From positions 6,149,001 to 6,213,000 of the forward strand of contig NZ_CP114905.1 of the NCBI RefSeq assembly GCF_027497195.1: a DNA stretch of 64,000 bases, in the 5' to 3' direction. The stretch comes from Streptomyces sp. WMMC500. GTDB lineage: Bacteria; Actinomycetota; Actinomycetes; Streptomycetales; Streptomycetaceae. The translations under genes were made by a program, and so were the position numbers. Shown in pieces: positions 48,629 to 51,333 of this stretch (the stretch's first letter is position 1; every line of letters begins with the position of its first letter). Under the pieces are notes generated by a model. That model had not been told where the DNA came from and made no database searches. It worked only from the letters and a program-made list of their open reading frames with translations.

Positions 48629-48687
48629 CCCGCGGCGGTCACGGCGTCCGGTCGCCGCGCCGGGCGCCGGACTGCCTCACCGCGGGC
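48627..48687. terminator. Long inverted repeat between glmS and E1-like gene
   Basis: AGCCCGCGG (48627-48635) pairs with CCGCGGGCT (48679-48687), enclosing a further GTCCGG/CCGGAC stem. It overlaps the last codons of both convergent genes. Confidence 0.55.
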
Positions 48688-49804
48688 TCCCGCAGGCGGG
48701 GCAGTCGGGGCGGCGCGGCAGCCGGACGGTCACCTCGTCGCCCGGCACCATCAGGTTGAACCCGAAGCGGACGCCGGGTTCGAGCGGGGGGATGCCGGTC
48801 AGCAGCGCCAGGGCGCCGTACGCGACGAGCGCGCCGGACAGGCCCGCGGTGACGGCGTTGGCCGGGTTCCACGGCAGGTGGGCGGAGGCGGCGGGCTCGT
48901 CGGCTCCGGCGGCGAGGCCGAGGTCGGCGCGCCGCGTCGCCTGGTCGTGCAGGCACTCCCAGCACCCGCCGGTGCCGGGCCGGTGGATGCCGGCGGTGAC
49001 CAGCGGGCCGCTGTAGCCGCCGTCCACCCACGGCAGGCCGGCGGCCAGACAGGCCCGGTTCGCCCAGCGCCGTATCCGCGGCGGCCCGTCGGCGCCCAGC
49101 ACGAACACGTCGTACGGGGGAGAGGACGCGAGGAGCGCGGCCAGCTCCGCCGGGGCGGAGACGCGGCGCGCCTCGCCGGTGACGCGGATGTCGGGGTTGA
49201 CGGCGGCGAGCCTGCGCACGGCGGCGTCGGCCTTCCGCGCGCCCAGGTCCGCCTCCGCGTAGAGCAACTGCCGGTTCAGGTTCGACAGTTCCACCGTGTC
49301 GTCGTCGACCACGTGCAGGTGGCCGACGCCCGAGGCGGCCAGGTGCCAGGCGGCGGCGCCTCCCGTACCCCCGACGCCCAGGACGAGCACCCGGGACTCC
49401 TTCAGCCGCAGTTGCGCCTCCCACGCGCTGGCGCGCTCGCCGAGGTCCATCCAGCGCAGCAGCGGCACGCTCCGGCTGTAGCGCTCGGCTTCCCGGGACG
49501 AGAACTGCGCGGGCAGCGGCGCGGCGGCGTCTTCCAGGAAGCCCGCTGAGGCGAGCCGGTCCAGCGCGGCGGTGACGTCGCCGGGTTCGACACCCTCGTG
49601 GCGGGTGCGTACGGCGGTGACGATGTCCTGCGTGCTGCGGCTGCCGTCGGCGGCTTCGACCAGCGTCCAGACCCAGCCGCGCGGGTCCTCGATCTCCGCG
49701 CCGACGCCGTAGACCACGCTGCCGATACGGACGTTCCCGGCCACGGTGCGGTAGCCGCGGTGCTCCGGTTTGACCCGTGGCCGCGCCCAGTGTGCCACCG
49801 CCAT
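48677..49804 (-). CDS. E1/ThiF-type adenylyltransferase with N-terminal RRE-like domain
   Basis: A 375-residue protein from the ATG at 49802-49804. The C-terminal E1 core (about 105-375) has the ATP-binding motif VLVLGVGGTGGAAAWHLAAS (GxGGxG at 143-148), the Asp loop VVDDDTVELSNLNRQLLYAE with its Arg finger, and a zinc site of two CxxC pairs (GGCWEC and CPAC). Such enzymes adenylate a peptide or protein C-terminus. The first 95 residues (VKPEHRGYRTVAGNVRIGSV, WVWTLVEAADGSRSTQDIVT, ALDRLASAGFLED) look like a winged-helix PqqD/RRE-type domain, the module that binds leader peptides in RiPP pathways. A 23-residue peptide is encoded divergently 109 bases away, the likely substrate. The RRE assignment is by eye. 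Confidence 0.8.
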   Translation of the reverse strand: MAVAHWARPRVKPEHRGYRTVAGNVRIGSVVYGVGAEIEDPRGWVWTLVEAADGSRSTQDIVTAVRTRHEGVEPGDVTAALDRLASAGFLEDAAAPLPAQFSSREAERYSRSVPLLRWMDLGERASAWEAQLRLKESRVLVLGVGGTGGAAAWHLAASGVGHLHVVDDDTVELSNLNRQLLYAEADLGARKADAAVRRLAAVNPDIRVTGEARRVSAPAELAALLASSPPYDVFVLGADGPPRIRRWANRACLAAGLPWVDGGYSGPLVTAGIHRPGTGGCWECLHDQATRRADLGLAAGADEPAASAHLPWNPANAVTAGLSGALVAYGALALLTGIPPLEPGVRFGFNLMVPGDEVTVRLPRRPDCPACGSPR

Positions 49805-49912
49805 GCCCACCCCGCAGGCCGCGCCAGGAAACCTTGCACCGACGCGGCCCAATGTGCACTACTGAGTGAGTCGTTTCAAGCACACAGAGTTGACCCTGTG
49901 GAGGGAGGCGCG
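49805..49912. promoter_or_regulatory. Divergent promoter region of the peptide cassette
   Basis: The 108 bases between the E1-like gene and the peptide gene must hold both promoters. GTTGACCCTG (49889-49898) resembles a -35 element but lies too near the peptide start to be its promoter without a very short leader. GGAGGGAGG at 49900-49908 is a strong ribosome site for the peptide. Confidence 0.5.
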
Positions 49913-49984
49913 ATGCAGGAGATCAGGATCCGTCGTCTCGACAAGAAGGAGACGACGGGCGACAGCAACCCCAGCGGCGAGTGA
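49913..49984 (+). CDS. Short peptide, putative RiPP precursor or signal peptide (23 residues)
   Basis: A small gene below usual annotation size: ATG at 49913, a very good GGAGGGAGG ribosome site five bases upstream, and a stop TGA at 49982-49984 that overlaps the GTG start of the carboxypeptidase gene. The product begins MQEIRIRRLDKK and ends ETTGDSNPSGE: a basic/hydrophobic leader-like half and a small polar C-terminal half, with no Cys and no signal peptide. The E1-like enzyme with an RRE-like domain (divergent) and an M14 carboxypeptidase (translationally coupled) flank it, which fits a precursor that is bound, trimmed and activated at its C-terminus. It could instead be only a leader controlling carboxypeptidase translation. 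Confidence 0.65.
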   Translation: MQEIRIRRLDKKETTGDSNPSGE

Positions 49985-51333
49985 CGCCGGTCGGCGCCCC
50001 CACGTTGGCGCGTCATCGTTACCCCACCGTGGACGACCTCACGCGGACGGCCCGCGACCTGGCACGGCGCCATCCGTCCCGCTGCCGGCTGCGGCAGATC
50101 GGCGAGTCCCGCGCGGGGGAGCCGCTGTGGCTGCTCTCCGTCGGCCACGGCTCCCGGAACGTCCTGGTGGTCAGCGGCGCGCATCCGAACGAGCCGGCCG
50201 GGGGCGCCGCCGTCGCCGAACTGGCCTACCGCGCTGTACGGGCCGTGGGTGCCGGACGTGCGGTACGTACCGGGCGGGACCGGCGGCAGGACCGCGACGT
50301 CGCCTGGCATTTCCTGCTCTGCCTGGACCCGGACGGCGCCCGCCGCACCGAGCCCTGGACCCGCCACCCCGGCACCCTGGAGCGCCAGCTCCGCCACTTC
50401 TACCGGCCCGCCGCCGACCAGCAGCCCGAGTGGCTGCCGGGGCCCGGCGGGGCCGCGCCGCTGCCCGAGACCCGGGCCCTGCTGACGGTGCTCGACGAAC
50501 TGCGCCCGGCGCTCCAGTTCTCCCTGCACGCCAACGACGCGGGCGGCGCCTGGGTGCAGCTCACCCACGACCTGCCGGGCGCCCCGGCCGCGCTCTCGGA
50601 GGCCGCCGCCGGCCTCGCCGTGCCGGTGGCCGCCGCGCCGGTGGACACCCTGCACATGCCGGGCGCGGGCCCGGGTGTCTTCCTCATGGCCGCCGCCGAC
50701 GGGCTCGACGCCAACGTCGTCCACCGCGACTGGCTGACCCGCTCCACCTGGTTCCACCCGCTGCGGTACGGCACCGTCACCGCCGTCGTCGAGACGCCCG
50801 TCTGGGCCGTCGAGGCCGTCGCCGACCCCCGGCCCACCGGGGCGCCGCACCTCGTCGTCGCACAGGCGGTGGCGCATCTGCGCGCGCGGGCCGACCGGTT
50901 GGCGGGCCTGCTGGCCGAGGCGCGCGGCGGACTCGGCGAGGCGCCGGGCCCGTTGCTGGACGCCGCGGCCTGGCTGACCGAGGCGTGTTTCACCAACGCC
51001 GCGCAGTGGTCCGCCCCGCCCACCCCGGGCGGCACCCCGCCCGCGGCGACCGCCGGCGGCGCCCTCGCGCTGCACATGGCCGCCCACCGGCTGCCGCTGC
51101 GGGCCGCGGCCCTGCTCGCCCGCGCGACCGGCGGCCATCCTGTCGGCCCGGCGGCCGAGGCGCTGCTCACCCGCTGGCGAAGGCGCTACGCCGCCGACTT
51201 CGGGCCCCGCTGGATCCCGGTACGCCGGCAGACCACGCTGCAGACCGAGTTCGTCAGCCGCCTCGCCCGCCTGGCCCTGGGCGCCGGGCGGCACCCGGGC
51301 GGATCACCCGCGGCGCACCACCGCGACCGGTGA
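49981..51333 (+). CDS. M14-family zinc carboxypeptidase
   Basis: A 450-residue metallopeptidase without a signal peptide, so it acts in the cytoplasm. Zinc ligands fit His68 and Glu71 (SGAHPNEPAGG) and His183 (SLHANDAGG); the catalytic Glu is probably Glu271 in VVETPVW. The N-terminus (HRYPTVDDLTRTARDLARRH, IGESRAGEPLWLLSVG) is typical of M14 peptidases. M14 enzymes remove C-terminal residues or cut D-glutamyl/diaminopimelate amides. Its GTG start overlaps the stop of the 23-residue peptide gene (GTGA), tying production of the two together and pointing to the peptide as substrate. About 180 C-terminal residues beyond the catalytic core are helical and unassigned. Confidence 0.88.
   Translation: MTPVGAPTLARHRYPTVDDLTRTARDLARRHPSRCRLRQIGESRAGEPLWLLSVGHGSRNVLVVSGAHPNEPAGGAAVAELAYRAVRAVGAGRAVRTGRDRRQDRDVAWHFLLCLDPDGARRTEPWTRHPGTLERQLRHFYRPAADQQPEWLPGPGGAAPLPETRALLTVLDELRPALQFSLHANDAGGAWVQLTHDLPGAPAALSEAAAGLAVPVAAAPVDTLHMPGAGPGVFLMAAADGLDANVVHRDWLTRSTWFHPLRYGTVTAVVETPVWAVEAVADPRPTGAPHLVVAQAVAHLRARADRLAGLLAEARGGLGEAPGPLLDAAAWLTEACFTNAAQWSAPPTPGGTPPAATAGGALALHMAAHRLPLRAAALLARATGGHPVGPAAEALLTRWRRRYAADFGPRWIPVRRQTTLQTEFVSRLARLALGAGRHPGGSPAAHHRDR

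Follow-up and report, generated by a model that had tools for sequence, protein, structure and literature searches.

A putative RiPP cassette in Streptomyces: a conserved 23-residue precursor-like peptide beside a predicted RRE-ThiF enzyme and an M14 carboxypeptidase

Introduction

In ubiquitin-like systems (ThiS/MoaD, ubiquitin), C-terminal trimming to Gly is followed by adenylation by an E1 enzyme, and in microcin C the peptide MccA ends in Asn. Enzymes that combine an E1 (ThiF) domain with a RiPP recognition element (RRE), among them MccB, PaaA, GrcB, EnfB and IndF, serve pathways for ribosomally synthesized and post-translationally modified peptides (RiPPs). The ThiF-RiPP types treated in PMC12250964 are microcin C, pantocin A, GRC and enterofaecin, to which PMC12150305 adds indolylamide. 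The pantocin A precursor has a three-residue core (E16/E17/N18), R174 and K187 of PaaA are reported to be necessary for activity, the leader motif of enterofaecin is (V/I)RKA and the product of GrcB is a thiolactone (PMC12250964); IndF couples the C-terminal carboxylate with the side chain of the residue three positions upstream (PMC12150305). Here, a stretch of 64,000 nucleotides from Streptomyces sp. WMMC500 (contig NZ_CP114905.1, positions 6,149,001 to 6,213,000; hereafter the window) is examined for a cassette that comprises a gene for an E1/ThiF-type enzyme, a 23-codon gene for a peptide and a gene for an M14-family carboxypeptidase. Because a conserved precursor under selection is accompanied by a predicted RRE on the E1 and by a carboxypeptidase-like M14 product, the locus is read as a RiPP cassette that belongs to the known RRE-ThiF systems. 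Very probably, the precursor is held through its leader by the RRE-ThiF enzyme, which would adenylate a carboxylate of the core.

Conservation of the Small Reading Frame

The initial annotation described a 23-codon frame with an excellent ribosome site and with a stop codon that overlaps the start of the M14 gene, and direct reading of the DNA confirms this arrangement. The frame (49913-49984) translates as MQEIRIRRLDKKETTGDSNPSGE. Its stop codon, TGA, and the GTG with which the M14 gene begins run into each other as GTGA, so that the two genes share four bases and are probably co-translated (Table 1).

A total of 80 named loci (referred to by L numbers), the 80 best among 554 related stretches and hence a set in which close relatives are favoured, were compared with the window. 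In 61 of them, a short frame carrying the leader motif I.IR.LDK.ETT is found no more than 3 kb from the E1 gene, and the 969,529 bases of these loci beyond that distance contain no match. A scan of the whole window returned exactly one match. The count of 61 is not an independent test, since the leader scoring matrix was built from peptides of the same loci. Two further samples, some genomes of which repeat named species, come nearer to one: a genus sample, with the E1 at E<=1e-90 in 33 of 384 Streptomyces genomes (the window's own included), and a class-wide sample, with the E1 at E<=1e-70 in 13 of 384 genomes. The motif was present in 30 of 30 fetched loci of the former and in 16 of 20 loci of the latter, one in each being the window itself. 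Six named actinomycete families have precursors with the motif, and a protein search found relatives of the E1 spread across actinomycetes. The 19 named loci that gave no motif match include one that starts at the E1 gene (L093), one with a partial E1 (L164), one with a weaker variant (L139), eight that carry a different short frame (see below), one that shows no frame of this kind (L127) and seven with distant E1s (L162, L165-L170).

The frame also evolves in the manner of a protein. The ratio of non-synonymous to synonymous differences (pN/pS) was 0.23 in 10 sequences of the group with GGNGGx cores, 0.32 in 16 sequences of the DSNxxGx group and 0.47 in 69 leaders. For the two shifted frames the values were 1.05-2.76; shifted-frame rows that contained stops and rows of other length were dropped from these sets. 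The selection signal is taken from such wider sets because flanking DNA, too, is highly conserved within the small clade to which the window belongs. Conservation of the frame among relatives with a bias toward synonymous change, the check proposed in the initial annotation, is thus what was found. In addition, 76 of 79 peptide frames combine a ribosome-site-like sequence with a start codon, and two or three precursors stand in tandem in L003/L161, L099, L110, L148 and L158. Scanning the 23-residue peptide against NCBIfam and Pfam, and four longer relatives against NCBIfam, gave no useful match, and of six database proteins retrieved with a 41-residue relative, five are named 'hypothetical protein' and one has no name. 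On this sequence evidence, the 23-codon frame is a conserved gene that evolves as a protein, and the precursor-like peptide gene proposed at the outset is real. A spurious small frame beside an E1 that is an ordinary sulfur-carrier activator of the MoeB/ThiF type is extremely unlikely, given both this conservation under selection and the alignment of MoeB and ThiF with the E1 from about residue 99 onward, which misses the RRE-like N-terminus.

A second type of tiny frame was read beside related E1 genes in Pseudonocardiaceae, near SARP-like regulators. It accounts for the eight loci with a different short frame mentioned above, lying directly upstream of the E1 gene in L130, L141, L144, L150, L151 and L156 and occurring also in L135 and L159. 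Six of the eight frames start with (M/V)IEF, for example MIEFIEVHRETTFSSPTQQS and MIEFHEVDDEEMTFSGTDSEA, and they possibly represent a sister precursor family.

Table 1. Positions of the cassette features in the window, numbered from its first nucleotide
Feature	Position	Strand	Basis
E1/ThiF-type adenylyltransferase, predicted RRE-ThiF fusion	48677..49804	-	375 codons from ATG, read directly
Adenylation (ThiF) domain: R178, K191, D239, C281/C284, C368/C371	48686..49513	-	Invariance in 42/42
Predicted RRE of the E1 for leader binding (residues 1-95)	49520..49804	-	Model topology, profile, Pfam
Peptide-gene ribosome-binding site, GGAGGGAGG	49900..49908	+	Sequence
Likely precursor peptide gene, 23 codons and stop	49913..49984	+	Conserved frame, purifying selection
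Leader MQEIRIRRLDKKETT, residues 1-15	49913..49957	+	Motif I.IR.LDK.ETT
Putative core GDSNPSGE, residues 16-23	49958..49981	+	Core statistics; boundary inferred
M14-family zinc carboxypeptidase, 450 aa, GTG start	49981..51333	+	Start overlaps peptide stop

The E1 Enzyme and Its Predicted RRE

The intact GxGGxG motif, Arg and two zinc CxxC pairs attributed to the E1 enzyme at first sight are shared by its relatives: G143, G145, G146, G148, R178, K191 and D239, together with the cysteine pairs C281/C284 and C368/C371, are the same in every one of the 42 sequences aligned. The E1 collection left out L006-L008, L031 and L032, and the E1 tree left out L164, L091 and L100. In the profile alignment, R178 and K191 fall on R174 and K187 of PaaA. 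The N-terminus (residues 1-95) is modeled as three strands followed by three helices. PaaA is the best profile match, aligned from its residue 7 onward and thus with the RRE included, and MccB is the next; the structure model finds its best match in MccB over the whole length. Of the aligned E1s, 16 of 42 match the Pfam family PaaA-like_N at E<=0.01, the lowest value being 3.7e-8; the window's own E1 scores 15.4 bits, under the 27-bit cut-off. Model topology and these matches to MccB and PaaA agree with the RRE-like N-terminus first proposed, and the segment is predicted to be an RRE. An N-terminal model unrelated to RRE domains, named beforehand as the outcome that would speak against the proposal, was not obtained, as both model and profile match the RRE-bearing PaaA.

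The E1 was also considered as part of an E1-E2 defence system (CBASS/Bil-like). This candidate was rejected: the PADLOC matches (25 listed) cover the E1 domain only, and no E2 domain was found in the five neighbouring proteins scanned.

Peptidase Partners

The M14 product, annotated as a carboxypeptidase from its sequence, yields a structure model that does match carboxypeptidases A/B. The zinc ligands HxxE...H and the catalytic Glu are present, and R142, a possible counterpart of Arg145 in the substrate-carboxylate pocket of CPA, is invariant in the M14 alignment; the protein is thus predicted to have a carboxypeptidase A/B-like fold with zinc ligands and catalytic Glu. Other M14 genes of Streptomyces were considered as members of the same system and rejected, as no such peptide was found in the 10 upstream stretches examined. 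Among the matches listed, these genes are approximately 44-49% identical, and 222 of 392 genus genomes have a match, E1-linked ones included. A single one of the M14 loci L034-L060 (L041) has an E1 within the flank. In these loci, the related M14 gene often appears, from reading of the sequence, to face a second M14 gene and to lie downstream of an FHA-like frame.

A gene for an M50-type peptidase lies near the E1 gene in 42 of 90 related loci, and removal of the leader is likely a job of this peptidase there. In the window, none of the genes seen accounts for leader removal or export. As the flanks of the genus and class-wide samples are approximately 1.5 kb, M50 or M14 genes farther off are missed in these samples. 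An M14 or an M50 gene is near the E1 gene in 58 of the 90 loci, an observation that bears on a reading in which the peptide is a scaffold like that of pearlins: the E1 would load the peptide C-terminus with a small amine or an amino acid, the M14 (or M50) peptidase would free the product and the peptide would be reused. C-terminal products of pearlin pathways are released by M50 proteases (PMC10885120). However, no tailoring enzyme for a pearlin-like small molecule is among the four neighbouring genes examined, and M14 and M50 genes occur together in 16 of the 90 loci and in 20 of 30 loci of the genus sample, indicating that they do not simply replace each other. Such a scaffold is very unlikely.

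Members of a single protein cluster (18 loci) are encoded repeatedly in M14-free loci (e.g., L108, L118, L122 and L125), downstream either of the M50-type gene or of the E1 gene; the one member tested is DUF6879.

Core Residues and the Proposed Reaction

The explanation favoured overall, tentatively and with somewhat more doubt than trust, is that the precursor is held by the RRE and trimmed by the M14 enzyme, that a Gly is then adenylated by the E1, and that a lactone is perhaps formed on a core Ser. In the window peptide, the leader would be bound by the RRE domain of the E1, and Glu23 would be removed by the M14 carboxypeptidase, exposing Gly22 as the C-terminus. The exposed Gly22 would be adenylated by the E1 and might then be closed onto Ser18, giving a small lactone with a five-residue ring (Ser18-Gly22). 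In the GGNGGx group, the corresponding ring would contain six residues, and some relatives carry a Cys in place of the Ser. Closure on a side chain is a model borrowed from IndF and GrcB. The specific sequence of trimming to Gly22 and closure onto Ser18, put forward from analysis of the core residues, is possible and a little less secure than the outline as a whole.

One line of evidence for this proposal is the pattern of residues in the core, the 6-13 residues that follow ETT. Counted from the start of the core (+) or from its end (-), the window peptide has Ser18 at +3, Gly22 at -2 and Glu23 as its last residue. Distinct M14-adjacent cores have Ser at +3 in 20 of 20 cases (14/14 from named loci, 4/4 from the genus sample, 2/2 from the class-wide sample) and Gly at -2 in 19 of 20 (14/14, 4/4 and 1/2, respectively). 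This tally joins the 14 cores of the named loci with new cores picked by eye from the other two samples, and it was recounted. Shuffling residues within the 14 cores (2000 rounds) gave Ser at +3 in 3.5 cores on average (maximum 10) and Gly at -2 in 5.2 (maximum 11), versus 14 observed for each. Ser or Cys is at +3 in 40 of 60 distinct cores overall and in 18 of 32 that are M14-free. In two Micromonospora loci without an M14 gene (L128 and L142), the core ends at SNPSG, which equals the SNPSGE of the window minus its Glu. This pattern fits the initial proposal that the peptide would be bound via its N-terminal half, trimmed and then activated.

A different target is conceivable for the E1, namely a carboxylate within the peptide (that of Asp17 or of a Glu side chain), activated much as PaaA does with Glu, with the M14 enzyme later removing a short C-terminal follower. 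PaaA is the best profile match of the E1, RRE included, and Asp or Glu is at +2 in 12 of the 14 distinct M14-associated cores. Against this, other cores of the family have neither residue at +2 (e.g., GPSNSQGA, SGSSESGN, GLSNSGGT and VCSNSTGN), L106, L107, L137 and L139 have Gln in place of the Glu of ETT or lack this residue, and the EEN core of PaaP is absent from the window peptide, so that activation of an internal carboxylate is judged distinctly unlikely. Slightly less so, though unlikely too, is a route like that of microcin C, by which the E1 would leave a nucleotide, amide or imide adduct at the adenylated C-terminus (MccB/EnfB) and the M14 product would be a processing or self-immunity peptidase. 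MccB is the top structural match of the E1 model, and 17 of 32 distinct M14-free cores end in Asn like MccA. The window peptide, however, ends in Glu, an Asn end is found in just 2 of 14 distinct M14-associated cores, and the Ser or Cys at +3 is left unexplained.

Several observations weigh against trimming to Gly and closure onto Ser, the reading favoured here. First, Gly at -2 is present also in 13 of 32 distinct M14-free cores, and shuffles of the M14-free cores reach this count (maximum 14 versus 13 observed) and approach that of Ser or Cys at +3 (17 versus 18). Second, individual loci do not follow the expected pairing: L154 has SNPSGN without an M14 gene, and L214 (SNSQG) has an M14 gene, its frame open up to the end of the locus, yet ends in Gly with nothing further to trim. 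Third, on a tree of 64 rows (from which L116, L161, L139 and any row lacking a motif peptide were also left out), the presence of M14 changes approximately 5 times and Gly at -2 approximately 8 times; with so few changes of M14, shared ancestry may explain much of its link to the core. Fourth, with more than half of the M14-free cores ending in Asn, more than one C-terminal chemistry may exist within the family, and Ser at +3 could instead serve recognition or leader cleavage. Finally, an M50 peptidase of the type seen in 42 of 90 loci was not found in the window's genome by a search that had no positive control, and MoeB (Z of 28.5 over 239 residues, no RRE part) ranks over PaaA (27.8) when structural matches of the E1 are ordered by Z.

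A bolder version of the favoured reading would have ubiquitin-style priming act on a 23-residue peptide, with a co-translated carboxypeptidase, an RRE-guided E1 and closure by Ser or Cys producing a family of tiny (thio)lactones. This version is speculative and rather unlikely. If true, the (thio)lactone peptides of actinomycetes would recall autoinducing peptides.

Genomic Neighbourhood

Farther out, the cassette is flanked by genes for a GlmS-like SIS/glutamine-amidotransferase protein, for a universal stress protein (Usp) and for a regulator of the AraC type that also has a DJ-1/PfpI domain, consistent with AdpA, the name used in the initial annotation. The role as a developmental signal that had been suggested from this proximity was not upheld: over flanks of up to 10 kb, less at contig ends, a single one of the 80 named loci has adpA near the cassette (S. 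aculeolatus), and two have glmS. The neighbourhood is therefore particular to the window's own small clade.

Elsewhere in the window (55157-56841), a tRNA-His faces an integrase gene, with a LacI-type DNA-binding domain between the integrase parts. The match to the catalytic domain is just under threshold, and the arrangement resembles one end of an integrated element.

Comparison With Known Systems

What was found undescribed within the known RRE-ThiF kind is the precursor family and its M14 partner enzyme: a literature search returned no recognised description of either among the matches listed, and the main text of PMC12250964 contains 0 occurrences of Streptomyces. An earlier sighting of the enzyme clade is possible, because PMC12150305 places several further clusters in its Figure S1. 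A possible connection with squaramides led to no paper. The cassette would be minimal and, with its E1 in 33 of 384 Streptomyces genomes, widely distributed. Its precursors make the reaction of an entire clade within the RRE-ThiF enzymes testable with a synthetic 23-mer and two enzymes, and the M14 partner raises the possibility that RiPP biosynthesis can be primed by trimming of the C-terminus.

Pantocin A (PaaA; N-terminus PF21475, PDB 5FF5) resembles the cassette in its RRE-ThiF fusion, in a short precursor gene nearby and in the conserved R174/K187. It differs in that the window peptide has no EEN core and that an M14 gene stands at the adjacent position; the genes adjacent to those for E1 and peptide are M14, GlmS-like, Usp and the AraC-type regulator, no genome search for PaaB/PaaC having been made. 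From microcin C (MccB), the cassette differs in a core that ends in Glu after Gly and in the presence of a leader of approximately 15 residues. The indolylamide (IndF) and thiolactone (GrcB) pathways likewise pair an RRE-ThiF enzyme with a precursor, and ind also has a peptidase, but they are streptococcal, have other leaders and cores, and employ an M16 peptidase (ind) or radical SAM enzymes (grc). Enterofaecin (EnfB) shares the short precursor and an RRE-ThiF enzyme that acts on the C-terminus; its RKA leader motif and WWIVI core are both absent from the window peptide (leader MQEIRIRRLDKKETT). Two loci with distant E1s (L006 and L007; 33 and 31% identical, respectively) have short frames upstream that carry TRKASIAG and end in ANEG or TVEG, and this segment recalls the RKA leader motif reported for enterofaecin (PMC12250964).

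Ubiquitin-like activation would, if the favoured model holds, be alike in outline, with the difference that the substrate here is a leader-bound 23-mer and not a beta-grasp protein.

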